Shown: one piece after another, positions 2,357 to 43,806 of the stretch | Position numbering within the stretch: position 1 is the first letter of the stretch | Layout: the number at the start of each line of letters is the position of its first letter | Source of the DNA: Treponemataceae bacterium | Lineage (GTDB): Bacteria > Spirochaetota > Spirochaetia > Treponematales > Treponemataceae | Direction of reading: 5' to 3' | DNA: 44,278 nt | Assembly (NCBI GenBank): GCA_024680915.1 | Contig: JAILBN010000004.1 | Span: forward strand, 1 to 44,278 | Position numbers and translations under genes: made by a program | The notes under the pieces: generated by a model | Seen by the model: only the letters and a program-made list of their open reading frames with translations | The model's database searches: none | What the model was told of the DNA's origin: nothing

Positions 2357-2402
2357 AAAAATAATATATACTTAAAGGAAAAAAAATGATATACTGAATT
2401 TC
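2357..2402. promoter_or_regulatory. divergent, closely packed promoters for the DRTGG-like gene (-) and parA (+)
   Basis: On the plus strand an extended -10 (TG at 2387-2388, TATACT at 2390-2395) ends 7 nt before the parA ATG. On the minus strand TATATT (complement of 2363-2368) ends 6 nt before the DRTGG ATG. Neither has a convincing -35 and neither gene has a Shine-Dalgarno sequence, so both mRNAs would be leaderless or nearly so. With the two -10 boxes about 21 nt apart, polymerases would compete. Confidence 0.55.
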
Positions 2403-3158
2403 ATGGGTAAGGTCTACGTTTTCGTTAATCAGAAGGGAGGGGTTGGTAAAACAACTTCTGCTATCAATATAGGCGCATATTTGGCTGAAGCCGGAAAAAA
2501 AGTGCTGCTTGTCGATTTTGACTCTCAGGGAAATATGTCTTCCGGTGTAGGTCTTACAAGGAAGAAACCTACAGTCTATGAGCTTATGGCCGGGCAGGCG
2601 TCAGCTGAGCAGGTTATAAGTCATACTGCGGTATCCGGTCTTGATGCGGTTCCTGCTGACATTGATCTTTCGGGAGCTGCCATTGAGCTGGTTGGTCAGG
2701 AAGATAGAGATTTCTTCCTGAAAAAGAGCTTGGAGCCGATAAAAGATAAATACGATTATATACTTATAGATTGTCCCCCTTCCTTGGGTATTCTCACTTT
2801 GAACGGTCTGGCTGCGGCGGATGCCGTTCTTATTCCTATGCAGTGTGAGTATTTTGCTCTTGAAGGAATCTCTCTTCTTCTTCAGACTGTAAAGAAAGTT
2901 CAGAAAACTATAAATCCTAAACTGACTATAGGCGGTATCTTCTTTACCATGTACGATTCCCGTACCCGTCTCGCCCAGGATGTGGTCATGCAGGTGAAAG
3001 CCTATTTCGGGGAGGCGGTCTTCAATACGATTATTCCAAGGAATGTAAGGCTTTCCGAGGCTCCTTCCCATGGAGTACCTATCTGTAAGTACGATCCCAA
3101 TTGTCAGGGAGCAAGAAGTTATAAAAGCCTTGCTGAGGAGGTGATTCTCCGTGGCTAA
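2403..3158 (+). CDS. parA: chromosome-partitioning ATPase ParA (Soj)
   Basis: 251 residues, normal length for chromosomal ParA/Soj without an N-terminal HTH. The deviant Walker A motif KGGVGKTT (residues 11-18) lies at the extreme N-terminus, VDFDSQGNMSSG follows as Walker A', and ILIDCPPSLGILTLN carries the Walker B. The protein should dimerise on ATP, bind DNA non-specifically and be stimulated by ParB to segregate origins. The gene overlaps parB by 8 nt, indicating a translationally coupled operon. The ATG is preceded by an extended -10 instead of a ribosome binding site. No parS-like palindrome (family consensus TGTTTCACGTGAAACA) was recognised nearby. Confidence 0.97.
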   Translation: MGKVYVFVNQKGGVGKTTSAINIGAYLAEAGKKVLLVDFDSQGNMSSGVGLTRKKPTVYELMAGQASAEQVISHTAVSGLDAVPADIDLSGAAIELVGQEDRDFFLKKSLEPIKDKYDYILIDCPPSLGILTLNGLAAADAVLIPMQCEYFALEGISLLLQTVKKVQKTINPKLTIGGIFFTMYDSRTRLAQDVVMQVKAYFGEAVFNTIIPRNVRLSEAPSHGVPICKYDPNCQGARSYKSLAEEVILRG

Positions 3159-4044
3159 AGCATCCTTTGGACTAGGAAAAGGGTTAGAGGCTCTCATGTC
3201 GGAAGCCGAGAAAGAGGTCGGTAAAGAGACAAAAACAGGGACAGAGGTTGTTTCTGGAGAGCTTGAGATAGATGTGGAGAAGCTTCTTCCCAATCCTCAT
3301 CAACCAAGGACAGAGTTCGACAAAGATGCTCTTCAGGAACTTGCCGATTCAATAAAAGAACATGGTGTTATACAGCCTATCCTTGCGGAGAAAGCTGATG
3401 GTGGTAATTACTATATTATCGCGGGAGAGAGACGTACGAGGGCTGCGAAGCTGGCCGGCCTCAAAAAGGTACCCGTTCGTATACAGTCTTTTTCTGAAGA
3501 GAAAAAACTTGAGGTCGCACTTATCGAGAATATTCAGAGAGAAGATCTCAACGCACTTGAAGAAGCCCTTGCTTATCGTAAGCTCATGGATATGTGTAAT
3601 ATAACCCAGGATGAGGTCGCCCGCCGTGTAGGAAAAAACAGATCGACGGTTACGAATTCCCTGAGACTGTTAAAGCTTCCTGAGGATATGCAGACTTCCC
3701 TTGCCAATGATGAGATATCGGCAGGTCATGCCCGGGCTTTGCTTTCAGTAACGAATGCTGCTGACCAACGTATTCTTTTCGCAAGGATTCTTGGGCAGGA
3801 CTTATCCGTCCGTGAAGCTGAGCGACAGGCAACGGAGCTTAATGGCGGAGGTAAAGCTACTGTCAAAAAAACTCCCAAGATGACAGAAAAAAAAGATCCT
3901 GATATATTATCTGTCGAAGAGCAGTTTATCGAAGCCCTTGGTACGAAAGTACAGTTGAGAGGGTCTCTTGAGAAAGGTTCCCTGCAGATTGATTATTTCA
4001 GCCGAGATGATTTGGACAGAATTTTTCAGCTTATCGTAAAATAG
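3151..4044 (+). CDS. parB: chromosome-partitioning protein ParB (Spo0J)
   Basis: 297 residues starting with GTG inside the end of parA. The order is typical: an N-terminal GLGKGLEALM segment, of the kind that stimulates ParA in this family; a ParB/sulfiredoxin-fold CTP-binding domain with LLPNPHQPRTEF and the GERRTRAAKLAGL box; then a central HTH (TQDEVARRVGKNRSTVTNSL) that would read parS; then a Lys-rich linker and a C-terminal dimerisation domain. It forms the sliding clamp at parS and feeds ParA and SMC. The 142 nt after it hold no gene and supply the leader of the next one. Confidence 0.96.
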   Translation: MAKASFGLGKGLEALMSEAEKEVGKETKTGTEVVSGELEIDVEKLLPNPHQPRTEFDKDALQELADSIKEHGVIQPILAEKADGGNYYIIAGERRTRAAKLAGLKKVPVRIQSFSEEKKLEVALIENIQREDLNALEEALAYRKLMDMCNITQDEVARRVGKNRSTVTNSLRLLKLPEDMQTSLANDEISAGHARALLSVTNAADQRILFARILGQDLSVREAERQATELNGGGKATVKKTPKMTEKKDPDILSVEEQFIEALGTKVQLRGSLEKGSLQIDYFSRDDLDRIFQLIVK

Positions 4045-4186
4045 TTTGATTCTTTTTTTATAGAAATCTTCGATACCTTTTTTAGTCTAACTCTTTGTGG
4101 TGGTTTTCTGAGAAAACAGTTTAGAAATTCGTAAATTCAGCCGATAGTAGCAGTGGAATAATTTAAATATTGGAGGTATTGGATTA

Positions 4187-7100
4187 ATGCAAAAAAAAGT
4201 AATTGCGGGGATTTTTCTAGGTATCGCCGTATCAACCTGTGCATTATTTTCTTCCGGCAAAAAAGAATTAGAGGAAATTTCAGTTCAAAATCTTGAAAGC
4301 TGGCAAGAGTCCTTTCCTATAGAAGAAAAAAAACCTGGTGTCTACAATATAATGGTCACTGCAAATGATAAAGGTGGTAATACCACTGTTGTCGGTCCCT
4401 ATAATATTTATATAGATCCGAATTCAGATCTTCCTGTATCTGGTATTACGAATCCTCATAACGGAATGAGGGTTCCGGGTAACCTTAATATAGTTGGAAC
4501 CTGTGTTGATGATGATGAAGTCAGCTATGTTGAGATAGTTCTTGATGGTAATGAGGAGAGGCCTGTAAGGGCTGAGGGAAAAGAGTTCTGGTCCTATTAT
4601 CTTGATACCTCAAAATTGGAGGAAGGAGAGCATACTGTTGCTGTTACGGGTGTCGATATATACGGGACCAGGGGTGAAACCATCTATGCTTCCTGGCATT
4701 TGGACAGAAAGCAGCCTATAACGGAAATAAGCAGTCATGGTATAGGTGAGCTTGTTTCTGGCAAAATAAAACTTGAAGGTGAAGTTAAAGATGGTAATGG
4801 GATAGAGTCCCTTGAGTATTCCTTGGATGGAGGAGTTACTTTTGAGGAGATATCTGTAAAATATAATAAGACGGATTTGAAATGGACTTTTTCACTCACC
4901 GTCGATACCAGGGATTTGGATGATGGACCTCAGGTATGTTGGTTCAGGGCAGAGGATACCCAAGGTTCTATAGGAGTCTCCTCCTATCTTTTCTTCGTTG
5001 ATAATACAAAGCCGGATGTGGATATTATTACTCCGGCAGAAGACGAGAGTGTGAACGGAATCTTTCAGATTGCAGGTTCTGCCTATGATGTCATAGGTCT
5101 TTCTTCTATGACTTGGGAATTTGAAAAAGAGAAAGGGGAATTTGATCTTATACCTGGTAATCCGTATTGGTTCAAGGAATTCGATGTACGTGAAATCAAT
5201 TCAAAAAAAGTGAAATTTTCTATTAATGTCGTTGATAAGGCAGGTAACGTCACAAAAGTCGATAGGACGATTACTATAGACAAAGAATCGGATTTTCCTG
5301 TCGTGGAGATTGTGGAGCCTGAAATTGATCCGACTTCAAAAACAGGTCCTCTCGTGGAGGATGAGTTCTATTTGCGTGGTAATGTAACCGATGATGACTG
5401 CGCTGCGGAATTCCACTGGTATATAGATAAGGACGGTGAGGATCATCTGTTAGAAACAGAGGGTGTTTTCTATGCGGATATTCTTAATTCTCTTCCGGAT
5501 AAGCTTTCGGTGGGAGAGCATACTCTTTTCTGCTATGCGGTCGATATAACCGGAGTAGTTGGTAATACTGTGAGCTTCCCCTTTACAATAAAGGGAGATT
5601 CCCCTGTCATTACTTTGGATACGGTTACTGAGAAAATAGATGGAAAGAACACTGATTCGGATTATATTCCTGGTATGGAGCTTCATCCTGAACGGGATGG
5701 AATCCTTAAAGGTACAGTATCCAGTGAGTGCGGTCTTACAGGAATCTCTTGGAAAATAAATGGTCGTGACAGCGGCTCTGAGATACTGAAGGGGACAAAA
5801 GATTCTGTGTCTTATGAAATTCCTCTTGATTCTGCTCCTTGGGGACTTGTCCAGATAGAGGTCAGTGCGGTTGATGTTTATGATAGGTCCGTTTCTGAGA
5901 AGTTTTTTGTTTACAGGACTAATCTCTCGAAAAACAGGGATTCTTCAGCCGTAGTTTTCTCAGATTCAACATCTGAGAATGGAATAATCAACTTTGCGGA
6001 TACAAAAACAGTCAGTGGTTATTTTACAGGTGGAAAAGCAGTATCCATTGCCTTGGAACCGGATGAGGGCTTTGCAAGAGCAAAGCTTTCTGGCAACAGC
6101 ATCATCCTTACCTCTACAGGAAAAACAGGAAAGTCTTCACCAACAAGAGTTATTGTCACTACTGATAAGGAGCTTGTATATAAGTCCTCTTCTCTTACCT
6201 TTGATGTAGAGCTTGCTGCCCCTGAGCTTATCCTTGATCAGACGACTTTGCTTGATGGCTTCAACAAGGTTTTTGTCAGCGGTCGTGTCGGTGAAGCTGG
6301 CTCCAGACTGAAAAAGCTTACTCTCTCAGCAGAAGAAATAAAGCAGGAAGCTCCGTATGAGGGCAGCATCGTCGCTGAATATCGTATCATAAAATCCGCG
6401 GAGGATATCGGTAACTGGAAAAAGCTTAGTTTATACGGAAGTGGAGATTTCTTTTTGGAGCTGAAGTCATCAGCTTTCGATGAAGGAATAACTATTATTG
6501 AGTTTGCTTCTTATGATTCTGGTAGTAAAAAAACTATAAAAGCGGCCGCGGTAAAAAAAGTATCACCTCTTCCTGCGCCGAATCCAGATGATCCGAAGGC
6601 GAAACCACCTGTAGCTGCGGCTCCTGTAATCCGCTGGATTCAGGGAGAACAACTTTATTTCACTTGTTATTATCAGGATAGTTTGTCTTTTACTTCTCTT
6701 ACGGCGGCAGGACAAAGTTTATTATCAACGGATGTGGATTTCCTTTTCCCTGAGGCCGGGGCTGTTCCTTACAGTTATTTCCCTGCAGGAAAGTCAAACG
6801 CCGAAATAAGGCTTGCTGACGTAAAAAACAAATCAGCTGTATTGAAAACGGATATCATAAGGCCGGGTAATGTTTCTGCAGTCATTGATTCCGTCAACGA
6901 TGTGACATACAGTTCAGGAATGCAGGTGGAGCTTCCGGCTCCTGGCTCAAAAAATCAGACGGCATCCATGAAGGTGAGGATTCATTCGGATCTACCCATA
7001 ACCTCATGCACATATTCTATAGCAGATAAGCCTTCTTCATCAGGTAAGGTTCAGAAGGTCACCGGTTCAGACGGAGTCGTTATTCCTGATGAATTTGAGG

Positions 7101-10100
7101 TTTATATCCCTTTGAAGGATGTGGAAGCTCTTTCTACGGACATAACGGTTTCATTCATAATAGACAAGACAATAAACAAGACCCTTAAGGGAACTATATC
7201 TGTGGTTAGAGCTCTTCCTGAAGCGGGAGTTGACGACAAGGAAAAGATATACTGGATAGAGCCCATGTTTAAGGATAAGTCCTATGGATATCTCCTTGAG
7301 AAGGATGTTCCTTTGTATGGCTTTGTGAATGTCTCTGCTCCTTATACGGTTCTTGTGAAATGTGAGCAGGAAGGTCTTTTTATAGAGCAATTTGGAAAAA
7401 CAGTAGCGGTAAAAGCAAAGAAGGAAGCTTTCTATGAGGATGTTTACCTTGTGGTCAGAGACAGCGAAGGTATCGAATATGAATCAGGAAAGGTTTCTTT
7501 TGCTGCTGATTATTCTGATCCAAGTGTTACTATACTCTCTCCAAAAAACCATGTTTGGATTCAGGAATCTGTTGGAATTTCTGTGGATGCACAGGACTCC
7601 AATGGTATTGGTTCCGTTGAATACTCCATTCATGATGGAAAGAACTGGCGAAAAATGGAGACTGACGAAAATGGTATTTACCAGGCTGAGGTTTCGGTAG
7701 CTGCTTTCAAAGACGGCTTGCTGCCACTTGATGTTCGTGTGACCGATAATACCGGAAAAACTTCTTACAAGCGGCTGACAATGGCTAAAGATACGCAGGC
7801 TCCTGTTGTGACGACTGTTCTTCCGGAGGCTGGGGCTTCTGTCAATGGACGGACTTTGTTTGTTGTAAAAGCGGAAGATAATGGGCGCATTGTGTCTGGA
7901 AAATGTGTACTTCCTGTTGTTTCAGAAAAAGAGAGCCCAGCTTCCGATGAAGAAGTTGAGGGAATTATTGAGGAAGAAGCTGAGGTAGTTATTGAGGAAG
8001 AAGAGCCGGTTGTCATCGATCTTGGTGATAAGAAAATCGTTTCTCTTGTAATCGGTGCAGAAGAGACACCACTATCTTCAGAGCTGTATTTTTCATATAC
8101 CGATGCAGCCGGAAATGTGGCTGATTATAAGGACAAGCCTTATAAAATCGATTTGGAGGCTGATAAACCACGGGTTGAGATTCATCTGCCTGATGATGAT
8201 ACAATATTGATTACGGATTTCACTGTGTCTGGAATAATTTATGACGATGACGGTGATTCCTACGTATGGTTCAGTATAGATGATGCTCCTCCTGTCCGTT
8301 CCAAGGAAGCTGCCTCAAACTGGTCCTTTGATATTAAGCTTGATTCTCTTGATGATAATGAACATACCATAACGGTCTTTGCGGAGGATATTCTGGGGGT
8401 TCGTGGAGATTCCGTACAAAAAATCATAAAAGTGTCACGGGAAGAACCGAAGGGAGAGGTTATTAGTCCTACCCTTGAAGAATCCTTGTCAGGAAGAATA
8501 TCGATTTCTGGAAAAGCGGCGGACGGCAATGGTATAAAATTGGTACAAATATCAATAGATAATGGAAATACATGGCAGGATGCGGTAGGCACAGAGGAAT
8601 GGAGTTATGCACTTGATACCCGGATTATCGAGGATGGAACACATGTCGTCTTCCTCAAAGTTTGGGATAATTATGATATCCAGGGCTTGTACTCCAGCCT
8701 TATAAATATTGATAATACCGCCCCTGATATTAATCTTGAGCTGCCTGTTGATGATATGTGCTTGAAGACAGGCAACTTAAAGCTTTCGGGCCATATGACG
8801 GACAATGTCGGTCTTTCAAAATTGTATGTAAAGATTCGTAATATGGATCCTGCTCAGCCAGAGGTTCCGGAGGAATTCGCATACAGGGAGCTTGATATAG
8901 AACAGATTATCAACTGTGATATCGATATTTCATCCCTTGAGAACGGATTCTATAATGTCGAGGTCACTGGTGAGGATGCAGCAAATAATATTACGAGGGT
9001 TTCAAGGAATATCTTGGTGGATTCCCGTGCCGAGCCTGTCGTTTTGAACCTTCTGTATCCTCTGGACGGAGAGCATATTTGTGGTAACTTCAGTATATAC
9101 GGAAATGCGGAAACAGAAGAAAAGCTGACAAACCTTTCTCTCCTTATGGATGGAAAGGAAATCGGAGGTACCACCGTTACCGAAACTAACCATTTCGTGT
9201 TTCAGCTTACACCCGAGCAGCTCATAGATGGTAATCACACCTATAAGGTAAGGACAACCCTTAATGACGGAAGTGTGATTTATTCGGAGGAGCAATCTTT
9301 CGTCTATGTGTCCACCGGACCTTGGGTTGCTGTTAATGGCTTTATTATGGGTGATTTTGCTATTGACCGCCCCTTTATCACTGGAGAGGCCGGTTACATT
9401 CTTTCTGATGAAGAGATGATGGCTCTTGAGTCGAAGGAAACGTCAAAATACGAAAGGAATCTTATCAAGCAGAAAGCTCTTGATAAGGTAGAGATAAGTC
9501 TGGATAACGGTAAAAGTTTCTTGCTTGTTGGTAATAAACCTGAATGGAAATTCCGTATAGAGAATGATGAGTATACGGAAGGCTCCCATCATGTGATCGT
9601 ACGGGCTACTATGAAAAATGGGGAGACTGCCGTCACCCGTACTATTTTCCAGATAGATAAGACTTCCCCTGTCGTTAAGCTTATAACGCCCAATGAAGCG
9701 GGTCGTTATAATAGTGTCATTTCATTTGCTGGTCTGTCCTCGGATGACGTTTCCCTGAGGGATGTCACACTTTCATTAAGGAGTGGTGATAAGTCGAATT
9801 ATGAGGTACCGTCGTTCATTCAGGGACTTTATCTTGAAGGCCATTTGTGGGGTGTAACATTATTCGATGTTGGTATCGGTCTTACCTTCTTTGATAATAA
9901 CGTAAAGCTGCAATTCCAGTATGGTCAGATGTTCCAGGGGCAGTTCGACTTTATGCATAATGTTATCGGAACGGACACTTCAGGTCTTCGCTATGGTGGT
10001 CACGTTTTCGGGGCAAAGCTTCTTGCGAATATTGCGTCTATCCCCTTCAGCTATTTCTTCGGGCCTGATCTGTCCTGGCTTAGTGCTACCTTCGGACTTG

Positions 10101-10336
10101 GAGCGAATTTCTCCATGTTTACGGAAACACAGAGTAAGAAGCCTCAGATTCTGTCTGCATTCCTAGGACAGATGGAATTCCCCAAGGTTACATTCAAAGA
10201 TAGGACAATGTTCAGTACATTCTCATTTTACACCGAGTTCCAAGTGTGGTTCATTCCGACGGATATAGAATCACAAGTTGATATAAACTCTATTGTCCCG
10301 CAATTAAGCTTCGGCTTACGCTTCAATGTGTTCTGA
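4187..10336 (+). CDS. giant exported Ig-like repeat protein with C-terminal beta-barrel-like domain
   Basis: 2049 residues with a clear Shine-Dalgarno GGAGG (4172-4176), 10 nt before ATG. A signal peptide is visible (residues 1 to about 22). A Cys at 18 does not sit in a convincing lipobox. About eleven Ig-like units of 90-100 residues follow, recognisable by a Pro-x-Val-x-Ile/Ser-Pro opening, an inner V/I-x-G strand, a DGNG(I) turn, YSLDGG- or ISIDNG-type strands and a closing xIDNTxP linker. Openings lie near residues 83, 175, 273, 368, 468, 1108, 1202, 1325, 1420, 1510, 1615 and 1827. Residues 580-1060 are more divergent. A Glu-rich linker lies near 1245-1285. The last ~180 residues are aromatic, alternating-polarity strands ending in FGLRFNVF, as expected of an outer-membrane barrel. 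It is probably a surface or envelope structural/adhesive protein; function is not established. Confidence 0.85.
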   Translation: MQKKVIAGIFLGIAVSTCALFSSGKKELEEISVQNLESWQESFPIEEKKPGVYNIMVTANDKGGNTTVVGPYNIYIDPNSDLPVSGITNPHNGMRVPGNLNIVGTCVDDDEVSYVEIVLDGNEERPVRAEGKEFWSYYLDTSKLEEGEHTVAVTGVDIYGTRGETIYASWHLDRKQPITEISSHGIGELVSGKIKLEGEVKDGNGIESLEYSLDGGVTFEEISVKYNKTDLKWTFSLTVDTRDLDDGPQVCWFRAEDTQGSIGVSSYLFFVDNTKPDVDIITPAEDESVNGIFQIAGSAYDVIGLSSMTWEFEKEKGEFDLIPGNPYWFKEFDVREINSKKVKFSINVVDKAGNVTKVDRTITIDKESDFPVVEIVEPEIDPTSKTGPLVEDEFYLRGNVTDDDCAAEFHWYIDKDGEDHLLETEGVFYADILNSLPDKLSVGEHTLFCYAVDITGVVGNTVSFPFTIKGDSPVITLDTVTEKIDGKNTDSDYIPGMELHPERDGILKGTVSSECGLTGISWKINGRDSGSEILKGTKDSVSYEIPLDSAPWGLVQIEVSAVDVYDRSVSEKFFVYRTNLSKNRDSSAVVFSDSTSENGIINFADTKTVSGYFTGGKAVSIALEPDEGFARAKLSGNSIILTSTGKTGKSSPTRVIVTTDKELVYKSSSLTFDVELAAPELILDQTTLLDGFNKVFVSGRVGEAGSRLKKLTLSAEEIKQEAPYEGSIVAEYRIIKSAEDIGNWKKLSLYGSGDFFLELKSSAFDEGITIIEFASYDSGSKKTIKAAAVKKVSPLPAPNPDDPKAKPPVAAAPVIRWIQGEQLYFTCYYQDSLSFTSLTAAGQSLLSTDVDFLFPEAGAVPYSYFPAGKSNAEIRLADVKNKSAVLKTDIIRPGNVSAVIDSVNDVTYSSGMQVELPAPGSKNQTASMKVRIHSDLPITSCTYSIADKPSSSGKVQKVTGSDGVVIPDEFEVYIPLKDVEALSTDITVSFIIDKTINKTLKGTISVVRALPEAGVDDKEKIYWIEPMFKDKSYGYLLEKDVPLYGFVNVSAPYTVLVKCEQEGLFIEQFGKTVAVKAKKEAFYEDVYLVVRDSEGIEYESGKVSFAADYSDPSVTILSPKNHVWIQESVGISVDAQDSNGIGSVEYSIHDGKNWRKMETDENGIYQAEVSVAAFKDGLLPLDVRVTDNTGKTSYKRLTMAKDTQAPVVTTVLPEAGASVNGRTLFVVKAEDNGRIVSGKCVLPVVSEKESPASDEEVEGIIEEEAEVVIEEEEPVVIDLGDKKIVSLVIGAEETPLSSELYFSYTDAAGNVADYKDKPYKIDLEADKPRVEIHLPDDDTILITDFTVSGIIYDDDGDSYVWFSIDDAPPVRSKEAASNWSFDIKLDSLDDNEHTITVFAEDILGVRGDSVQKIIKVSREEPKGEVISPTLEESLSGRISISGKAADGNGIKLVQISIDNGNTWQDAVGTEEWSYALDTRIIEDGTHVVFLKVWDNYDIQGLYSSLINIDNTAPDINLELPVDDMCLKTGNLKLSGHMTDNVGLSKLYVKIRNMDPAQPEVPEEFAYRELDIEQIINCDIDISSLENGFYNVEVTGEDAANNITRVSRNILVDSRAEPVVLNLLYPLDGEHICGNFSIYGNAETEEKLTNLSLLMDGKEIGGTTVTETNHFVFQLTPEQLIDGNHTYKVRTTLNDGSVIYSEEQSFVYVSTGPWVAVNGFIMGDFAIDRPFITGEAGYILSDEEMMALESKETSKYERNLIKQKALDKVEISLDNGKSFLLVGNKPEWKFRIENDEYTEGSHHVIVRATMKNGETAVTRTIFQIDKTSPVVKLITPNEAGRYNSVISFAGLSSDDVSLRDVTLSLRSGDKSNYEVPSFIQGLYLEGHLWGVTLFDVGIGLTFFDNNVKLQFQYGQMFQGQFDFMHNVIGTDTSGLRYGGHVFGAKLLANIASIPFSYFFGPDLSWLSATFGLGANFSMFTETQSKKPQILSAFLGQMEFPKVTFKDRTMFSTFSFYTEFQVWFIPTDIESQVDINSIVPQLSFGLRFNVF

Positions 10337-10344
10337 TTGAGAAA

Positions 10345-10377: not shown

Positions 10378-10384
10378 ACAAAGC

Positions 10385-10420
10385 TTGAAATAAGATGCCT
10401 TATCTTATATATTTTTGGAC
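10385..10420 (+). promoter_or_regulatory. leaderless promoter of apbE with inverted repeat in the spacer
   Basis: -35 TTGAAA (10385-10390), 17-nt spacer, -10 TATATT (10408-10413), then 7 nt to the ATG at 10421. A 7-bp inverted repeat ATAAGAT-5-ATCTTAT (10390-10408) fills the spacer exactly and could be an operator. No Shine-Dalgarno sequence is present. Confidence 0.7.
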
Positions 10421-12820: not shown

Positions 12821-12855
12821 GGACAGATTATAATACATCCTCCGTTTTAAATGAA
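12821..12855 (-). promoter_or_regulatory. leaderless promoter of the NusG-II/Gx-transporter operon
   Basis: A perfect TATAAT on the minus strand (complement of 12827-12832) ends 6 nt before the ATG at 12820. The -35 at 17-nt spacing is weak (TTCATT). If real, it excludes the ATG at 12838 as the start from this promoter. Confidence 0.5.
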
Positions 12856-14878: not shown

Positions 14879-14918
14879 AAGTTGTGATTATTCTAATATA
14901 TTTTTTTAAGTTCATCAA
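14879..14918 (-). promoter_or_regulatory. promoter of tRNA-Ala
   Basis: On the minus strand TTGATG (complement of 14913-14918), a 17-nt spacer, then TAGAAT (complement of 14890-14895), 11 nt before the mature 5' end. It supports the same -10 types (TAGAAT, TATAAT, TATATT) seen at the leaderless genes. Confidence 0.75.
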
Positions 14919-17280: not shown

Positions 17281-17293
17281 TATTATATGTAGT
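17281..17293 (+). promoter_or_regulatory. leaderless -10 element of the HExxH protein gene
   Basis: TATTAT (17281-17286) ends 7 nt before ATG 17294; no Shine-Dalgarno sequence is present. The -35 at 17-nt spacing (TTCTAA) is poor. Confidence 0.4.
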
Positions 17294-21093: not shown

Positions 21094-21129
21094 AGGGTTT
21101 AATATAGCACAAAAAAACAAGAAAAACAA
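21094..21129 (-). promoter_or_regulatory. leaderless promoter of the NlpC/P60 operon
   Basis: Minus strand: TTGTTT (complement of 21124-21129), 17-nt spacer, extended -10 TGC-TATATT (TATATT complement of 21101-21106), then 7 nt to ATG. Confidence 0.6.
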
Positions 21130-25228: not shown

Positions 25229-25264
25229 GAAGATAATTATACAGCCTGAATGAGACCCTGTCAT
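25229..25264 (-). promoter_or_regulatory. leaderless promoter of the CBS-ATPase/DRTGG/PHP operon
   Basis: Minus strand: ATGACA (complement of 25259-25264, 5/6 to TTGACA), 17-nt spacer, perfect TATAAT (complement of 25236-25241), then 7 nt to ATG 25228. Confidence 0.75.
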
Positions 25265-26101: not shown

Positions 26102-26136
26102 GGGGTGATACTATCCCCCGGGGCAAGTAAAGTCAA
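26102..26136 (-). promoter_or_regulatory. leaderless promoter of the HAD phosphatase gene
   Basis: Minus strand: TTGACT (complement of 26131-26136), 17-nt spacer, TAGTAT (complement of 26108-26113), then CACCCC and the ATG: 6 nt only. Confidence 0.75.
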
Positions 26137-26177: not shown

Positions 26178-26205
26178 TTTTTTGTTAACTCGACTTAACA
26201 AAAAA
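26178..26205. repeat. 11-bp perfect inverted repeat at the AAA ATPase promoter
   Basis: TTTTTTGTTAA - CTCGAC - TTAACAAAAAA. The right arm contains the -35 hexamer TTAACA of the ATPase gene, so a dimeric repressor bound here would block transcription. The T-runs also allow a weak terminator reading. Confidence 0.65.
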
Positions 26206-26230
26206 TGATATTTTGATTTATAATTTAACC
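26195..26230 (+). promoter_or_regulatory. leaderless promoter of the AAA/DUF4143 ATPase gene
   Basis: TTAACA (26195-26200), 18-nt spacer, TATAAT (26219-26224), 6 nt (TTAACC), ATG 26231. Confidence 0.7.
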
Positions 26231-27427
26231 ATGGAAAAGCTCATAGAAACATTTCGTAAGAAAATCAACTCAATAGAAATGGCTTTTATCCGTAGTCTTG
26301 AAAGCAAAATCAACTGGAATGCGCGCCTTATCTGTATACGCGGTTCAAGAGGTACTGGAAAAACTACGCTTTTACTGCAGCACATAAAAAAAACTTTTGT
26401 AGAAAACCTTGATAAAGTCATCTATGTTAGTTTAGACAATCTATATTTTTCGGATAACTCATTGATAGATTTTGTAGATAGGTTTGTAAAACATGGTGGA
26501 ACACATCTTTTTTTTGATGAAGTTCACAAATACCCAGACTGGTCACGTGTAATAAAAAATATTTATGATGATTATCCAGAATTACATGTTGTATTCACTG
26601 GTTCTTCTCTTCTTGAAATAGTAAATGCTCGGTCAGATTTAAGCCGTCGTGCTCTTGTTTATAATTTACAGGGACTTTCATTCCGTGAGTATTTGAATCT
26701 TTGCGCAAAAACAGATTTTCCAATTCTGACCCTAGAGGGGATCATCTCTGAAAATGAAAAACTGTCTTCTGATATTGCGACAAAAATCAAGCCTTTTGAG
26801 TACTTCGATGATTATCTTAAGTTCGGTTACTACCCCTATTTTTTGGAAGGAATAGATGATTATTATACTCGCCTTAACGAAACTGTTAACTTGATTTTGG
26901 AAATTGAACTTCCTTTGTTAAGAAAAATTGATGTTTCCTACATAACAAAAATAAAGAAGTTGCTTGCCCTAATCGGAAAATCAGCTCCCTTTATTCCCAA
27001 TGTTACCGAACTTGCTTCGACTGTTCAAATTGCGCGACAAACACTTTTGCAGTATTTCCAATATCTTGAAGAATCCAAACTGATATATCAGGTATTTAAA
27101 CAGTCACGAGGACTTGGAGTATTCGAAAAACCCGACAAGATTTTTCTTGAGAATACCAACCTTATGTTTATGCTAAGTAATACTGAAACAAATGTAGGAA
27201 ATATCCGTGAGACATTTGCATTCAACCAGCTTTCCCATAGTCATGAAGTGTTTTTTTCCGAACAAAGTGATTTTTTTGTTGATAAAAAGTTCACGTTTGA
27301 AATCGGTGGTAAAAACAAAAAACGCAAGCAGATTTCTAATATTCCTGATTCGTATATTCTTGCGGACAACATTGAATTCGGAACAGAACGCAGAATCCCT
27401 ATCTGGCTGTTAGGTTTTCTGTATTGA
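26231..27427 (+). CDS. AAA family ATPase with DUF4143-type C-terminus (probable horizontally acquired gene)
   Basis: 398 residues from ATG 26231. Walker [11 protein letters not shown] (about 37-46), Walker [12 protein letters not shown] (91-101) and sensor VVFTGSS (120-126) form an AAA_14 module, followed by LSFREYLNL. The second half (winged-helix-like region near [20 protein letters not shown], then [11 protein letters not shown]) is DUF4143-like with a degenerate nuclease-like end. Function of the family is unclear; a toxin/antitoxin-like or DNA-associated role has been suggested. Base composition is noticeably AT-richer than guaA, proS and the upstream HAD gene, and the gene sits alone between an inverted repeat and a GC-rich element, which suggests transfer. 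No toxin or antitoxin partner is visible. Confidence 0.85.
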
Positions 27428-29294: not shown

Positions 29295-29331
29295 TTGCAT
29301 AATAAGTAGTTTTTATATAGAATCATGTCCT
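29295..29331 (+). promoter_or_regulatory. possible leaderless promoter of proS
   Basis: TTGCAT (29295-29300), 17-nt spacer, TAGAAT (29318-29323), then 8 nt to ATG 29332. No Shine-Dalgarno sequence. Confidence 0.5.
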
Positions 29332-31149
29332 ATGAAAGCGTCACAAACATTATTATCTACACTGAGAGATTCTCCTTCAGATGCAGTTATCGCAAGCCAT
29401 CAGCTTATGATGCGCGCAGGCCTGATCCGCAAGCTTGGAAACGGCCTTTATTCATATATGCCCCTGGGACTCAGGGCATTCCGAAAAGTTGAGAATATAA
29501 TCAGGGAAGAGCTGGATAAAGCAGGCCTTCTTGAGATGAAACCCACTGTTGTCGTTCCCGGTGATATCTGGAAAGAAAGCGGCCGTTGGAACACTATGGG
29601 TGAGGAGATGCTCAAGCCGGTTACCCGCGGCGGTCAGGACATGGTTGTTAGCCCCACTGCGGAAGAGGCCTTTACTGCCCTTATCCGGGATGGACTTACA
29701 AGCTACAAGCAGCTTCCTATAATTGCATATCAGATAAATACTAAATACCGTGATGAGATCCGCCCCCGCTACGGCGTTATGCGCGGCCGTGAGTTCACCA
29801 TGATGGATGCATACTCCTTCGATGCGAATCAGGCTTCCCTTGATGAGTCATACGAAAAATGCGCCCAGGCCTACAGACGTATTTTCAAGCGCATGGGTCT
29901 TTCTACGATCTCTGTGAAGGCAGATACCGGTGCTATGGGTGGCTCCGGCTCGGAAGAGTTCATGGTAGAAAGCGAGGTGGGTGACGATACCCTTATCCTT
30001 TGCCCTAAATGTGGTTATGCAGCCAATGTGGAGAAGGCTTCCTGCAAGGATGATATAGCCCTTGATAAGGATGGAAATCCACAGAAGCCCACAAATCTTG
30101 CAGTGGAGGAAATCCCCACACCTGATGTAAAGACCATAGATGACTTGGCAAAGTTCCTTAATACCACATCCCAGGCCTTTATAAAGACGCTTATCTATAA
30201 GGTAGAGAATTGTGCCATCGATCTGTCTTCTGTCGAATGCTGCAAGCAGCTGAAAAAAGAGAAGACGGAGGCCGGTGCCTTCTACTATCCAGAAGCCTTT
30301 GTCGCTGTTTGTATCCGAGGAGATTTGGATGTGAACGAGGCAAAGCTTGCCGCTGCTCTTAAAGCAAGCAGTGTTGAGCTTGCCGCTGACCAGGATGTGG
30401 AGCGTATAACAGATGCTCCGGTTGGTTTCGCAGGCCCTGTGAAAATGGTAAAGGCACCTGTTATTGCTGATAAATCTGTTATGACTATGCACGACACAGT
30501 AACTGGCGGTCTTAAGAAGGATGTGCACTTTATCCATGTGGAGCCCAACAGGGATTTTACTCCCTTTATGGTGACAGATGTACGCACGGTTGTTCCGGGA
30601 GATAAATGTCCTGACTGCGGTGCAGACTTCTATTCAAAGAAAGGAAACGAGCTTGGCCATATTTTCAAGCTTGGCGATAAATACACAAAGTCAATGAACG
30701 TGACTTATCTGGACGAGAACGGTAAGCTTCAGACTCCGGTCATGGGCTGCTACGGTATCGGTGTGGACAGAACCCTGGCCTCAATCATCGAGGAGCACCA
30801 CGATAAGGACGGCATCTGCTGGACGATGAGTACAGCTCCCTATCAGGTTGCCATTGTGCCTGTCAAATACGAAGGCGTGATGAAGGAAAAGGCTGATAAG
30901 ATCTACGAAGAGCTGACCTCAAAGGGAATAGAGGTTCTTCTTGATGACAGGAATGAGCGCCCCGGCGTCAAATTCAAGGATGCAGACCTTATAGGCTTCC
31001 CTGTAAGAATCGTTGTGGGTGAGAAAAATCTTCCCAATGTGGAGCTCAAGCTCAGGAAAGAAAGTGATTCAAGTCTTGTAGCTGCTGACGAAGTGGCAGA
31101 CAAGGTTGCGGCAATCGTAAAAAAGGAGCTTGAGGAGCTTTCGAAATAG
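29332..31149 (+). CDS. proS: prolyl-tRNA synthetase, bacterial type with editing insertion
   Basis: 605 residues, class II ProRS of the bacterial (ProS1) architecture. Motif 1 region LYSYMPLGLRAFRKVENIIREEL, motif 2 YRDEIRPRYGVMRGREFTMMDAYSF, an inserted YbaK-like editing domain (about 225-430), motif 3 GCYGIGVDRTLASIIEEHHD, then the anticodon-binding domain (APYQVAIVPVKY ... LDDRNERPGVKFKDADLIG). Two CxxC pairs (CPKCGY near 224, CPDCGAD near 426) flank the editing insertion and could bind zinc. The next gene starts 27 nt after its stop. Confidence 0.97.
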   Translation: MKASQTLLSTLRDSPSDAVIASHQLMMRAGLIRKLGNGLYSYMPLGLRAFRKVENIIREELDKAGLLEMKPTVVVPGDIWKESGRWNTMGEEMLKPVTRGGQDMVVSPTAEEAFTALIRDGLTSYKQLPIIAYQINTKYRDEIRPRYGVMRGREFTMMDAYSFDANQASLDESYEKCAQAYRRIFKRMGLSTISVKADTGAMGGSGSEEFMVESEVGDDTLILCPKCGYAANVEKASCKDDIALDKDGNPQKPTNLAVEEIPTPDVKTIDDLAKFLNTTSQAFIKTLIYKVENCAIDLSSVECCKQLKKEKTEAGAFYYPEAFVAVCIRGDLDVNEAKLAAALKASSVELAADQDVERITDAPVGFAGPVKMVKAPVIADKSVMTMHDTVTGGLKKDVHFIHVEPNRDFTPFMVTDVRTVVPGDKCPDCGADFYSKKGNELGHIFKLGDKYTKSMNVTYLDENGKLQTPVMGCYGIGVDRTLASIIEEHHDKDGICWTMSTAPYQVAIVPVKYEGVMKEKADKIYEELTSKGIEVLLDDRNERPGVKFKDADLIGFPVRIVVGEKNLPNVELKLRKESDSSLVAADEVADKVAAIVKKELEELSK

Positions 31150-33136: not shown

Positions 33137-33172
33137 GTGAAGAAGTATAAAACAAGAAAACATATTTGTACA
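33137..33172 (-). promoter_or_regulatory. leaderless promoter of the GerMN gene
   Basis: Minus strand: TGTACA (complement of 33167-33172), 17-nt spacer, TATACT (complement of 33144-33149), 7 nt to ATG. Confidence 0.6.
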
Positions 33173-33199: not shown

Positions 33200-33234
33200 T
33201 TGACAGCTTCTTACTGCCCTGTTATAGTTCATTT
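33200..33234 (+). promoter_or_regulatory. consensus leaderless promoter of ptsI
   Basis: Perfect TTGACA (33200-33205), 17-nt spacer, TATAGT (33223-33228), then TCATTT and the GTG start at 33235. A start site 7 nt after the -10 coincides with the G of the start codon. Confidence 0.85.
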
Positions 33235-36414: not shown

Positions 36415-36426
36415 GACAAAAAGAAA

Positions 36427-36750: not shown

Positions 36751-36771
36751 CCGGAAGGTAAATACTTACTG

Positions 36772-38010: not shown

Positions 38011-38086
38011 AATAAAGCTTCCATTATTTCACATAAAATGATATACTTATATTTGTAAACCACAGGCAACTTGTGTATACATATAA

Positions 38087-38122
38087 GAGCCGTTTTCGGG
38101 AGGGGAAACGGCTCTTTTTTTT
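38087..38122 (+). terminator. intrinsic terminator of the ptsI-der-merR-rsm22 operon
   Basis: Perfect 9-bp stem GAGCCGTTT / AAACGGCTC, loop TCGGGAGGGG, eight T. An extended -10 (TGATATACT, 38039-38047) lies between the stop codon and this hairpin, see findings. Confidence 0.93.
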
Positions 38123-38142
38123 CGTCTGCTTGTGGCTTCCTC

Positions 38143-38177
38143 TGGAAAACAAGGAATTCCTGTAGTAGAATATTCCT
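38143..38177 (+). promoter_or_regulatory. leaderless promoter of the exported helical-repeat protein
   Basis: TGGAAA (38143-38148, 4/6), 17-nt spacer, TAGAAT (38166-38171), then ATTCCT and ATG 38178. Confidence 0.6.
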
Positions 38178-38909
38178 ATGAGCTTTAGACAGATAAAAAC
38201 TATTTTCCCTATTTTTGTTTTTCTTTTGCTTCCTGCCCTGCTTTTAAGCCTGGAGCCTCCTGCCCGTAAGGAGCTTCATGATGCTTTCTATAATGATACA
38301 TTAACAAGTATGGAAGAAAGCGAGGTTCTTTTTCAGGCTGCCCTTAAGGAAGCTGAGAGAACCCCGGAAGGAAGCTTGAAAAAAGTGAACCTTGCTTGGT
38401 GCTACTATTTGATGAGTCGTATCTGTGGAAATGCAGGAGATAAAAAAAGAGCGGAAAAGCTTTGTGATACAGCCTTTGATTATGCGGAAGAAGCTCTTGA
38501 TGAGAATGAGAATGCGGAGACTCTGCTGATTTATACCAACAGCATAGCTCAGAATTGTACAGTAAAGTCATTCTTTTATGTGATAACACAAGGAATTCGT
38601 GTGAACGGACTTGCAAAAGATATCCTTGAATATAACCCCCGCTGTGCAAGTGCCATGTATCTGCGTGACGCCCAGACAATTTATGCTCCGGCTCCATTTT
38701 ATAACTACAAGGATGGTATAGAGTGCATGAAAGCTATTCTGGCGGACTCCTCCGCGGAATTCGAGCCTTATGATTATTTCGATGTATATACTTCTCTTGC
38801 CTATGCACTTATCAATTCTGATAAAAAGGATGAGGCGGCTCCCTATCTTGCCGCGGCGGCAAAGATTTATCCAGGAAACAGCACTTTATTACAGCTTATG
38901 AAGCAGTAG
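38178..38909 (+). CDS. exported helical-repeat (TPR-like) protein
   Basis: 243 residues with a signal peptide (IFPIFVFLLLPALLLSLE). The mature part is alpha-helical with TPR-like pairs: SLKKVNLAWCYYLMSRICGNAGDKKRA..., AETLLIYTNSIAQ, and a final pair YTSLAYALINSDKKDEAAPYLAAAAKIYP that matches TPR spacing. It resembles small periplasmic TPR proteins of treponemes; partner unknown. It converges on the MATE gene with a 14-nt overlap. Confidence 0.78.
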   Translation: MSFRQIKTIFPIFVFLLLPALLLSLEPPARKELHDAFYNDTLTSMEESEVLFQAALKEAERTPEGSLKKVNLAWCYYLMSRICGNAGDKKRAEKLCDTAFDYAEEALDENENAETLLIYTNSIAQNCTVKSFFYVITQGIRVNGLAKDILEYNPRCASAMYLRDAQTIYAPAPFYNYKDGIECMKAILADSSAEFEPYDYFDVYTSLAYALINSDKKDEAAPYLAAAAKIYPGNSTLLQLMKQ

Positions 38910-40251: not shown

Positions 40252-40366
40252 AGTTTTTAAGTTTATTATCCTTCTGTTTTTTAGGCTATATGCGATTCAA
40301 TCCTTTTTTAGTAGTTTTCTGTCTTTTTTTCTTCCGGATTTTTATCTTTTAGTCCCTTTTGTGGTG

Positions 40367-40402
40367 TTTACGCTTTTTCCATAAGCCTATAGAATTAATT
40401 CT
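40367..40402 (+). promoter_or_regulatory. leaderless promoter of the discoidin-like protein gene
   Basis: TTTACG (40367-40372, 4/6), 17-nt spacer, TAGAAT (40390-40395), 7 nt to ATG 40403. Confidence 0.6.
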
Positions 40403-41215
40403 ATGAGTAATATTTCTATAGCGATAAATGATAAAAATGGAAAACTCCTTGCCACAGACAATGGAAATCAGTTCGTTAACTTGGTTTATGCCGCGGAATA
40501 TAATGAGGGAGATACTATAACCCTCACAGCAAAGCCAGGTTCCTTTCTTGTAATCCAGCTGGATGATGTGCTGGAGCCTTCTTTCGTCTATATGAAGGGC
40601 AGCAATTATACTATGCCCATTCCCTTTGGAGAGAAACGCTTCTCCTATAATCCCAAGACCTTCTCCGGTGAGCTTCATCTTCTTAAAGCACGCCTGGCGG
40701 AGGAATGTGAGATAGCTTGCCGCAAAAACCTTGCGCTTAACTGTCACGACACCACATCCGCAAAGGATGTGTGCTATCCCCACGTATCAGCGAACATTGA
40801 AACCAGAGGAGAGTCGGTATTCGCCGCCAGGAACGCGATAAACGGAAACACAGAGAACCGTTCCCATGGAAACTGGCCCTATGAGTCCTGGGGTATAAAC
40901 CGTGATCCAGAGGCAGAGCTTACCTTGGATTTCGGCCGGCCTGTAAAGATGGACAAGCTGGTCCTTGTCACCCGGGCAGATTTTCCCCACGATAATTACT
41001 GGCAGCATGCTACCATAACCTTTATAGCCCCTGATGGGTCGGTGGAAAGCCGCGTTTTTGACATGGAGAAAAGCTATGCTCCCCACGAGTGGAACTTTGC
41101 GACAGCACCAAAAACGATAACCGCACTGAAGCTGGGCAAGCTGCTCAAGGATGAGACCGATCCATCTCCCTTCCCGGCCCTGACCCAGATAGAGGTTTGG
41201 GGCACAGAAGCTTAA
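40403..41215 (+). CDS. cytoplasmic discoidin (F5/8 type C)-like carbohydrate-binding protein
   Basis: 270 residues, no signal peptide. The N-terminal ~105 residues form a small beta domain (SISIAINDKNGKLLATDNG...) and the rest reads as a jelly-roll: NLALNCHDTTSA, FAARNAINGNTENRSHGNWPYESWG, AELTLDFGRPVKMDKLVLVTRADFPHDNYW, FPALTQIEVWG. The ARNAINGN start and the buried LDFG strand are typical of F5/8C carbohydrate binding. It converges on the GH95 gene across a GC-rich element and may bind the same fucosylated glycans. Absence of a signal peptide is odd for a discoidin protein. Confidence 0.75.
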   Translation: MSNISIAINDKNGKLLATDNGNQFVNLVYAAEYNEGDTITLTAKPGSFLVIQLDDVLEPSFVYMKGSNYTMPIPFGEKRFSYNPKTFSGELHLLKARLAEECEIACRKNLALNCHDTTSAKDVCYPHVSANIETRGESVFAARNAINGNTENRSHGNWPYESWGINRDPEAELTLDFGRPVKMDKLVLVTRADFPHDNYWQHATITFIAPDGSVESRVFDMEKSYAPHEWNFATAPKTITALKLGKLLKDETDPSPFPALTQIEVWGTEA

Positions 41216-41341
41216 AAGGGCGTTCCCGTAAGTTGGGTCGCAAGCTCCCAAACTTACGGTCGGCGCTTCCGGGGTTCGCCGTCTTGCGCGTCTCATTCCT
41301 TCGGAACTTGCCCGAAGGGCAGCCCCTGCAGTGCCTAACGC
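41216..41341. other. GC-rich hairpin element bridging two convergent stop codons
   Basis: Begins AAGGGCGTTCCC right after the TAA at 41213-41215 and ends GCCTAACGC, within which the GH95 stop TAG lies on the minus strand. Inside is the near-perfect hairpin CCGTAAGTTGGG (41226-41237) / CCCAAACTTACGG (41247-41259) and TGCCC-GAA-GGGCA. It could serve as a bidirectional terminator although it lacks T-runs. No gene. Confidence 0.6.
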
Positions 41342-43770
41342 ACTTGGTATTTTAGCTTTTTCCCCGGCATTATAAGCTCAATCTCCGAGGCATGGTTTTT
41401 GCATGGTTTTCCGTCCCCGCCACATTTGGCCCCAACGTTCCAATCGGTGACTTTTCCATTTTTCCAGGCCAAGTCTGCCTGTAAGTTTCCGCAAAGGGCT
41501 ACACCCCGCAAAGAGCCTTCCTTCCATGCTTCAGGAAGAGCAGGCAAAAATTCTACGACTACCTTACCGTCTTGAAGTCTGCTCTGCACCAGCATTCTTG
41601 TGATTCCTGCAAGACCGCCGAAATTACCGTCAATCTGGAAGGGGGGATGGTTGTCGAAGAGATTTCCCAGGGTGGATTTTGAAAGAAGAGCCTGGACATT
41701 TTCCCAAGCTTTCTCCCCGTCACCAAGTGAAGAATAGAAGTTTATGATCCAAGCCCGGCTCCAGCCGGTATGGCCGCCGCCGTGGGCAAGCCGGTGCTCC
41801 AAGGTTTTCCTTGCGGCTTCTGCCCATTCCGGTGTGCCATCCTTTGTTATGGTGCAGCCAGGGAAAAGACCATACAGATGGGATATATGCCTGTGTCCCG
41901 GCTCAACCTCCTGGAATTCCCCGTTCCATTCTCGTATAGTTCCGTTTGATTGTATGACCGGGGGCAGAAGGCGGGAAAGTATGTCAGCAAATAGAGGCAG
42001 ATCTTTTTCCACGGCGGCGGAATAAGCGGTCGGAATTTCTTCTCCCAGCTGTGCCGCTGCGTAAAGAGTGCCCTTGAAAAGCTGCTCCAGTATACGGTTG
42101 TCCATTTCGCAGCCCGGGCAAAGGGAACCAGTCTGTCCGTTGGGAAGGCGGTAGGTGTTCTCCGGTGAGGCAGATGGGCTTACTGTAAGATTCCGCCGGC
42201 CAGCTGCGACTTTAGAGCTTTCTTCGTCCTTGCTTTCTGCCTGGGCAGGAATAGTCTCCGTTCCTTCAGTCAAGAAATCTGCGAAGAAAAGGCATGATTC
42301 ATGGAGTAGGGGGTACATTCGTCGTAGAAAGACCTTATCCTGAGTATACTCGTAGTGAGAAACTATATGAGTGGCAAGCCAGGCTCCTCCCAAAACCCAC
42401 CAGCTGGCAGGCATCCATAAATCCTGTGGTGCGCAGTCTCCCCATATATCGGTGTTGTGGTGGGCCACAAAGCCTTTACAGCCGTACATCTTTTGGGCTG
42501 TAATCTTGCCGTTGGGCAGCATCCTCTCCATCAGGTCGAAAAGAGGCTCCTCCAGCTCTGAAAGGTTACAGCAGTTGACCGGCCAGTAGTTCATCTCCGT
42601 ATTGATGTTTATTGTGAACTTGCTGCCCCAGTTGGGCTCAATCTTCCAGCACCATATTCCCTGAAGGTTTGCCGGAAGTGTTCCCGGTCTGCTGCTGGAT
42701 ATAAGCAGATAGCGGCCGAAATCGGCGTATAGCCTTACCAGATCCAAGTCCTGTGGTCTTTCTTTGAAGAGCTCCAGCAGTTTGTCTGTGGGCAGAGACT
42801 CCGCTGGGGTGTCAGGTCCGGCCTTAGCTGCGCTGCCAAGCTCCAGGCTCATCCTGTTGAAATAGCTTTGGTAGTCGGCTATATGCCGGGCTTTTATTGC
42901 TTGGTAAGCAGCCTCGAAAGCCTTTGAATCCACCGAAGCAGAGGCTGCATCAAAGAAAGCTGATATCTCATCCAGCTTTTTCAGGCAGGCTTCCTTGAAA
43001 TCCTTCTCCCTGAAGGCAGTACGTATATCCACAAAAAGAATGGCTTGGTCAGCCTCCTCCACTATGAGGGAGTGCCCGGCGGTGCGTACCCTGCCACCGA
43101 CAACGACAGCACGGGCCATGGCGCAGAAGGGAATTCCGTGGGCATCATCCATGAAGACTGTGCGATTGTCGATTTTGCCCTTGCCGTCCTCCCAGATGGT
43201 CCTGTCAAAATCAGCGGCGAAGTTTATAGAGCCCTTCTTGTCAGCAGAAGCCTTTATAATCATAAGCTCTTCCGGGGCAGATATGAAATATTCCCGGAAA
43301 TAATGGATGCCCTTTGAATCAAACTCCACAGTGGCAACTGCGGTGGAAATATCAAGCTGTCTTTTATAGGAGCTTATATGGGTTGCTTCTTGTCCACCCA
43401 CAGGACTTTCTGTGACTGGGAAGTCCCCGCAATATCCGGATTGGCTGTCCGAGCTGAAAGATATATTGAGATATCCTGCGGTCTGGAAGGCTCTTTCGTT
43501 GCAGGGCAGGGAACTGAAGGATTCAAGCACTTTCCTTTGGGCCTTTCTTATTTCACCTTCTGCAAGAAGCCTGCGGACCTCTGGAAGGGCTTCCTTTGCC
43601 TCAGGATTGTTCCTGTCCCTGAAAAAACCGGACCAGACAGAGTCCTCGTTTATCTGGAGCTTCTCAAAAGCAGGCTGTCCGAACATCATCATGCCCAGCC
43701 GGCCGTTTCCTAAAGGTAATGCTTCATTCCAATCAGAAGCAGGCTTATCATACCAAAGTGAATAATTCAT
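41335..43770 (-). CDS. GH95 family alpha-L-fucosidase (intracellular)
   Basis: 811 residues from ATG 43770, chosen because MNYSLWYDKPASDWNEALPLGNGRLG is the usual start of the family and a -10 lies 7 nt upstream. The N-terminal beta-sandwich is followed by the (alpha/alpha)6 barrel with NLQGIWCWKIEPNWGSKFTIN, INTEMNYWPVN, HHNTDIWGD (Asn region), EWNGEFQEVEPGHRHISHLYG (catalytic Glu region), GGHTGWSRAW and FQIDGNFGG (Asp region). GH95 enzymes cleave alpha-1,2-linked fucose or galactose from glycans by inversion. No signal peptide, so imported oligosaccharides are degraded inside the cell. No fucose transporter or catabolic gene is in the window. Confidence 0.94.
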   Translation of the reverse strand: MNYSLWYDKPASDWNEALPLGNGRLGMMMFGQPAFEKLQINEDSVWSGFFRDRNNPEAKEALPEVRRLLAEGEIRKAQRKVLESFSSLPCNERAFQTAGYLNISFSSDSQSGYCGDFPVTESPVGGQEATHISSYKRQLDISTAVATVEFDSKGIHYFREYFISAPEELMIIKASADKKGSINFAADFDRTIWEDGKGKIDNRTVFMDDAHGIPFCAMARAVVVGGRVRTAGHSLIVEEADQAILFVDIRTAFREKDFKEACLKKLDEISAFFDAASASVDSKAFEAAYQAIKARHIADYQSYFNRMSLELGSAAKAGPDTPAESLPTDKLLELFKERPQDLDLVRLYADFGRYLLISSSRPGTLPANLQGIWCWKIEPNWGSKFTININTEMNYWPVNCCNLSELEEPLFDLMERMLPNGKITAQKMYGCKGFVAHHNTDIWGDCAPQDLWMPASWWVLGGAWLATHIVSHYEYTQDKVFLRRMYPLLHESCLFFADFLTEGTETIPAQAESKDEESSKVAAGRRNLTVSPSASPENTYRLPNGQTGSLCPGCEMDNRILEQLFKGTLYAAAQLGEEIPTAYSAAVEKDLPLFADILSRLLPPVIQSNGTIREWNGEFQEVEPGHRHISHLYGLFPGCTITKDGTPEWAEAARKTLEHRLAHGGGHTGWSRAWIINFYSSLGDGEKAWENVQALLSKSTLGNLFDNHPPFQIDGNFGGLAGITRMLVQSRLQDGKVVVEFLPALPEAWKEGSLRGVALCGNLQADLAWKNGKVTDWNVGAKCGGDGKPCKNHASEIELIMPGKKLKYQVR

Positions 43771-43806
43771 AAGAGAAAATATGGCATAATCACGTATAAA
43801 CATCAA
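43771..43806 (-). promoter_or_regulatory. leaderless promoter of the GH95 gene
   Basis: Minus strand: TTGATG (complement of 43801-43806), 17-nt spacer, extended -10 TGC-CATATT (hexamer complement of 43778-43783), 7 nt to ATG. Confidence 0.55.

Follow-up and report, generated by a model that had tools for sequence, protein, structure and literature searches.

Promoters abutting the start codon, with a spacing bias shared across the class Spirochaetia, suggest widespread leaderless genes in treponemes

Genes and close promoters in the window

The window analysed here is a stretch of 44,278 nucleotides (nt) that makes up contig JAILBN010000004.1 of a draft Treponemataceae genome (GCA_024680915.1; 3.15 Mb in 134 contigs, 95.7% complete, 45% GC). 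It contains fifteen genes with a putative −10 promoter hexamer lying 6–8 nt before the start codon, an arrangement that would give leaderless mRNAs, and these were listed in an earlier reading made from the sequence alone (the sequence-only reading). The proS product of the genome is 94% identical to a protein of the Spirochaetaceae metagenome-assembled genome RGIG8125 from buffalo rumen, and every one of the best 80 of its 264 matches is named Treponema or another spirochaete, which bears out the description of the source as a treponeme; a 16S gene of its own was not found in its metagenome-assembled contigs.

On the forward strand, TATACT (2390–2395) lies 7 nt before the ATG of parA (2403), TATATT (10408–10413) 7 nt before apbE (10421; ApbE) with the −35 element TTGAAA at 10385–10390 (spacer 17), and TATTAT (17281–17286) 7 nt before gene 17294. 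An AAA_14/DUF4143 gene (26231) is preceded at 6 nt by TATAAT (26219–26224; −35 TTAACA at 26195–26200, spacer 18), proS (29332) at 8 nt by TAGAAT (29318–29323; −35 TTGCAT at 29295–29300), and ptsI (33235), which has a GTG start, at 6 nt by TATAGT (33223–33228; −35 TTGACA at 33200–33205, spacer 17). TAGAAT is found again 6 nt before gene 38178 (38166–38171) and 7 nt before gene 40403 (40390–40395; −35 TTTACG at 40367–40372).

On the reverse strand, TATATT (2363–2368) is situated 6 nt before a 112-amino-acid gene starting at 2356, TATAAT (12827–12832) 6 nt before a NusG_II-domain gene (12820; Pfam match), and TATATT (21101–21106) 7 nt before an NlpC/P60 gene (21093) with an ambiguous start. Genes for a CBS-ATPase (25228) and a Cof-type HAD protein (26101) follow TATAAT at 7 nt (25236–25241; −35 ATGACA at 25259–25264) and TAGTAT at 6 nt (26108–26113; −35 TTGACT at 26131–26136), each with a spacer of 17, and a Germane-domain gene (33136) follows TATACT at 7 nt (33144–33149; −35 TGTACA at 33167–33172). 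The GH95 gene (43770), whose start is also ambiguous, has the weak −10 CATATT 7 nt upstream (43778–43783; −35 TTGATG at 43801–43806, spacer 17), and its sole TAnnnT ends 5 nt before the start.

The sequence-only reading thus described the hexamers correctly, with TAnnnT at 14/15 starts and CATATT at the GH95 gene, and its statement that these genes have no Shine-Dalgarno (SD) site agrees with the finding of an SD core in 0/15 within the span searched (−20 to −4 before the start). The −35 boxes that it named for ptsI, apbE, the HAD gene, the CBS-ATPase gene and the ATPase gene at 26231 are all present, and its tRNA-Ala promoter, the reference for the consensus, is exact (−10 TAGAAT at 14890–14895 and −35 TTGATG at 14913–14918 on the reverse strand, spacer 17). 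The genes that it contrasted as having normal ribosome binding sites (4187, 13043, 15836 on the reverse strand, 15991, 21271, 27603 and 31177) have TAnnnT at 5–10 nt in 0/7 cases. Composition shuffles of the 15 upstream regions give a mean of 2.4 hits and a maximum of 9 (5000 shuffles); because the list was picked by eye and post hoc, a fair test calls for a larger sample.

Spacing and gene context in the genome

That sample comprises 681 kb (the window and 40 further stretches, 22% of the genome), in which 533 genes were scored; a first gene caller using codon weights was too weak and was replaced by a second. After starts chosen on coding signal only had blurred the spacing peak, a start model was introduced together with decoys. 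It is a mixture of a TA box, an SD box or neither, with a flat spacing prior and one promoter per gene, and it does not see the −35 region. The spacing d is the number of nt between the end of the hexamer and the start codon, such that d=6 puts the first T at −12. The SD-core count given above covers the 15 listed genes; for the remaining TA-led genes it is the model that sets TA-led against SD-led.

The model converged on TATAAT at 6–8 nt plus AGGAGG, with 123/533 genes TA-led and 374/533 SD-led. Shuffled upstream regions scored with the real-data parameters, which are the useful decoy, yield 4/533 TA-led genes; fits made anew on decoys move to a T-rich motif that lacks the 6–8 nt peak and labels 190–224 of the 533. 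Motif frequencies of the TA box are T.80, A.84, T.66, A.68, A.48 and T.94, and the spacing weights at d=6, 7, 8 and 9 are 0.36, 0.28, 0.16 and 0.08. At the chosen start codon itself 113/533 genes (21%) are TA-led (110 ATG and 3 GTG), which extrapolates from 681 kb to ~500 such genes genome-wide.

The proposal that these starts mostly head transcription units holds in the sample, where 57/164 divergent genes are TA-led versus 6/142 same-strand genes with a gap below 25 nt. The other same-strand classes give 9/45 (gap 25–69), 16/55 (70–119) and 21/106 (at least 120), and contig ends 4/21. With coding-only starts, the 164 divergent genes have 34 TAnnnT at 6–7 nt and about 5 per position further out, and a single TAnnnT at 5–8 nt is present among 124 same-strand internal genes (gap <25). 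The spacing distribution of unit heads and internal genes, which the sequence-only reading had put forward as a check, can be compared at the 87 genes with a single candidate start: among 49 unit heads there are 13 TAnnnT at 6–8 nt, where 4.7 would be expected, and among 22 internal genes there are none. Ungated scans show a modest peak, with 31 at d=6 and 34 at d=7 versus 16.1 per position.

Within the window the TA posterior exceeds 0.5 at 12/15 listed genes (at the NlpC/P60 gene it is 0.41). The model prefers other starts at 29332 (moving to 29407) and 43770 (moving to 43803); for proS, the start at 29332 is favoured by the family profile, which aligns from family position 1, and by the relatives. 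Two weak TA-led starts are added, at 2005 on the reverse strand (posterior 0.67) and at a MatE gene (40251, reverse strand; posterior 0.74); the latter, preceded at 8 nt by TAAACT (40260–40265) and with no −35, is a possible further case outside the list. In all, 14/34 scored genes of the window are TA-led versus 99/499 in the other 40 stretches, so the window overstates the genome rate.

Promoter and start-codon identity

Although the model does not see the −35 region, at least 4/6 matches to TTGACA occur at spacer 17 in 48/112 TA-led genes, and the remaining spacers between 10 and 25 have 0–7 each. A pyrimidine stands at −1, just before the start codon, in 84% of TA-led genes versus 58% of those led by SD; transcription initiating on the A of that codon would predict this. 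The coding score per codon rises across the start from −0.40 to +0.08 in TA-led genes and from −0.36 to +0.07 in SD-led genes. A strict promoter pattern, TTGA-N19-TANNNT followed by ATG at 6–8 nt, has 19 occurrences in the sample, and in 13 of them the ATG is a called start; the same promoter with ATG at 26–28 nt occurs 7 times and none is a called start, a comparison that is not fully independent in that the model helped to call the starts.

Conservation at orthologous genes

The layout is retained upstream of orthologues of three of the listed genes. For proS, TAnnnT lies 6–10 nt before the ATG in 73/80 named relatives (the best 80 of 264 matches), and the match starts at residue 1 in 80/80. 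Judged by eye, the seven exceptions (L068, L088, L099, L101, L108, L109 and L110) have AGG-containing purine runs instead. Because the flanks of these 80 relatives contain the proS promoter, their peak in a lenient scan is inflated and is not relied on.

Matches to ptsI are found in 58/60 genomes of the family, and in the best 30 loci (own gene included) TAnnnT is 6–9 nt before the start in 30/30; TTGACA is present in 20/30 upstream regions and the 29 relatives have 41–69% protein identity. At such divergence, unselected upstream DNA would hardly retain the layout. All 60 family genomes have a parA match, and among 50 loci (the 30 best plus 20 more selected from the list; own gene and Treponema pallidum included) TAnnnT is at 6–9 nt in 49. 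In T. pallidum (L256) it is TACACT at 8 nt, and the exception (L248) has a GTG start with GGAGG upstream, read as SD-led. In 30 loci each of parA and ptsI the matches begin at residues 1–4, and the start codon is exactly at residue 1.

Distribution in the Spirochaetota

The strict pattern was counted at d=6–8 and at d=26–28 in 296 whole genomes of the phylum. The source genome has 95 versus 39. Its family has 4399 versus 1996, with d=6–8 higher in 49/49 genomes, the rest of the order 851 versus 320 (10/10), and the rest of the class 2845 versus 1751 (58/59), so that d=6–8 is above d=26–28 in 117/118 genomes of the class overall. Read backwards, the pattern gives 1031 and 1126 in the family and thus no excess. 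The phylum outside the class has 11275 versus 10493, with d=6–8 higher in 118/178 genomes. The ratio is at least 1.31 in each of the 16 families of the class (one genome each in f4, f8 and f13–f16), and the weakest is f6 with 1377 versus 1050. Some families outside the class have the opposite lean (f29 and f46, 0.55; f39, f47 and f49, 0.71–0.79; 2–4 genomes each), as if leaders of ~20 nt were preferred there.

Twelve named genomes, which overlap the phylum set (several with identical counts) and are not independent of it, have d=6–8 above d=26–28 in 12/12: Treponema parvum (83/21), T. porcinum (85/38), T. bryantii XBD1002 (85/39), B25 (76/50), NK4A124 (92/39), JC4 (53/35), C6A8 (49/36), RGIG8125 (99/35), Ca. 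T. merdequi (112/49), UBA4873 (87/30), BRZ_GE bin34 (65/35) and SZUA-475 (71/20). In T. parvum the strict excess is clear and the excess in the lenient scan is only slight.

Start models of other genomes show a TA peak at 6–9 nt with a −35 at 17 in T. parvum (10/41), G138 (9/22) and, on few cases, G063 (4/21). The T. pallidum model has a degenerate TA motif (TACGCT-like) 7–9 nt before many starts (L121–L130 and L141–L150), and its −35 excess is broader, with 5, 9 and 8 of 91 at spacers 16, 17 and 18 and 1–4 elsewhere between 12 and 22. An f6 genome of 29% GC (G101) has TA at 7–9 nt and no −35 peak, and for this reason no promoter claim is made for f6. An AT-rich genome from outside the class (G022, f24), used as a negative control, has neither the 6–8 nt peak nor the −35.

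Proposed leaderless initiation and alternative explanations

Close sigma70-like promoters are located at many unit-head starts of the source genome, are conserved at orthologues, and have the same spacing bias throughout the class. From these we infer that the RNA begins at the start codon and that ribosomes start there, and the exact transcription starts and leader lengths are predicted on the same basis. The listed genes are very probably genuine leaderless genes, constituting an additional mode of initiation alongside SD; the sequence-only reading also postulated two modes, and the −35 at 17 nt, the −1 pyrimidine, the coding signal and the cross-species conservation support it. Treponemes probably start many proteins by this route.

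In the proposed mechanism, a housekeeping-type (sigma70-like) promoter would make RNA polymerase start on the A of the initiation codon or no more than ~3 bases from it. The resulting mRNA would be leaderless and its 5′-terminal AUG (rarely GUG) would be recognised directly, presumably by translation of the 70S/IF2 type. SD sites would serve most operon-internal genes and, among transcription-unit heads, roughly one half to two thirds. A broader reading, favoured here with less assurance, is that leaderless starts are an ancestral, class-wide second mode of the Spirochaetia, used by about one fifth of genes and one third of unit heads in the sampled treponemes. Since the ancestor of the family they would have been fixed at individual promoters, among them those of ptsI and of parA (the latter also in the agent of syphilis), and treponemal ribosomes would routinely start on a 5′-terminal AUG.

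Three other explanations were weighed. The most plausible of them, itself unlikely, is that the close promoters make some leaderless RNA and that the principal transcripts originate at more distant upstream ones, with leaders and ribosome entry dependent on structure or on ribosomal protein S1. Several promoters per gene are common in general, and the model allowed one; yet the close promoter is strongly conserved, the listed starts lack an SD core throughout, and the seven proS relatives without a close promoter have the purine runs in its place. Somewhat less probable still is that the promoters are real and the start codons wrong, with transcription from an upstream ATG-like site and translation from a later SD-led codon. 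The starts were partly chosen by the model, which itself moved those at 29332 and 43770, and this speaks for such errors; against them, the coding signal begins at TA-led starts just as it does at SD-led ones, proS matches run from residue 1 in all 80 relatives and the parA and ptsI start codons fall exactly there, and the same peak is present in genes with a single candidate start.

That the hexamers arise by chance, or from the AT-rich, unstructured DNA that precedes starts used in S1-type initiation, and were then picked by eye, is largely refuted and very improbable. The list is indeed post hoc, its shuffles still give 2.4/15, and the ungated peak is modest, but the −35 peak at spacer 17 is sharp, the shuffled upstream regions that had been suggested as a control yield 4 TA-led genes versus 123, internal genes have 6/142, and the AT-rich G022 shows neither signal.

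Several observations weigh against leaderless initiation on this scale. Gene starts are the calls of our own caller and not from proteomics. Coding-only starts of same-strand genes with gaps above 70 nt show no clear peak (24 versus 19.9 shuffled), which is attributed to wrong starts, and TA pairs arranged back to back show no enrichment (13 versus 9.9 expected). T. pallidum, counted within the 49/49 above, has no excess of the strict pattern (8 versus 7). TA calls at gaps below 25 nt are commoner than in the source genome in T. pallidum (21/114), T. parvum (8/55) and G101 (18/77), and these within-operon calls may be false. Several families outside the class also favour 6–8 nt, with ratios of 2.67 in f26 (one genome) and 1.36–1.48 in f27, f31, f35, f40, f41, f42, f51 and f52, and the class boundary of the spacing bias is a tendency and not absolute. 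Among published treponemal transcripts, considered here as excerpts of the papers cited, T. denticola TDE1716 and flaB2 have leaders of 14 and 124 nt (PMC9481697) and T. pallidum tprL is leadered with a proposed ribosome binding site (PMC7864442); these are other genes than those listed here.

Comparison with known leaderless systems

The sequence-only reading regarded widespread leaderless translation as undescribed in treponemes. This stands to the extent that no description for treponemes was found in the open-licence literature (subscription papers being outside the search); it does not extend to spirochaetes, in which leaderless genes are already known, and what is new is their extent in treponemes and their conservation gene by gene. 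Leptospira belongs to a different class of the phylum. In L. interrogans ~440 leaderless mRNAs (<10 nt) have been mapped, half of them with less than 2 nt; the authors of that study report sigma54 elements and state that they did not identify other motifs (PMC5243855). The source genome resembles L. interrogans in being a spirochaete with many leaderless mRNAs, mapped there and predicted here, and differs in its clear sigma70-like promoter.

In the excerpt considered of Zheng et al. 2011 (PMC3160421), leaderless genes are predicted in 6/18 Spirochaetes genomes, at 1.8–6.9% of genes (mean 3.9). The TA-led genes described there are similar, with TANNNT ~12 bp upstream, counted from its first T, beside SD-led genes, whereas here the proportion at the chosen start is the higher 113/533 and the spacing bias extends through the class. 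The same excerpt gives averages of 19% of genes in Actinobacteria and 39% in Deinococcus-Thermus, where likewise a second initiation mode sets a −10 box against the start codon. Those groups are GC-rich and the middle of their −10 box has low information, in contrast to the 45% GC and the TATAAT with TTGACA at 17 nt found here. In the part of PMC5397173 considered, six Spirochaetes have a mean of −3.25 on a component associated by its authors with leaderless or S1 signals; this finding argues against a phylum-wide signal and is compatible with the mixed phylum described here.

If leaderless initiation operates as proposed, a large share of treponemal proteins would be made with no SD site. Start-codon annotation and the design of reporter and expression constructs would change, as an added leader would alter the initiation mode, and the two gene sets could respond differently to drugs or stresses that affect SD-dependent 30S initiation. 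The class would also allow gain and loss of leaderless starts to be followed at individual genes, for example at proS, whose seven exceptions have SD-like purine runs.

Features of the parA region and back-to-back starts

Downstream of parA, an SD-led gene at 4187–10336 encodes a 2049-amino-acid protein with Ig-like (Big_7) repeats. The start codons of parA and of the reverse-strand gene at 2356 are 46 nt apart and back to back, and 7/30 parA loci, the source genome included, have a partner open reading frame with its own TAnnnT at 5–9 nt. This pair (2356–2403 in the window) and those at L039:18016–18056 and L019:8402–8452 have starts 39–49 nt apart and a −10 at leaderless spacing for each gene, and in each of them two putative promoters are packed into fewer than 50 bases.

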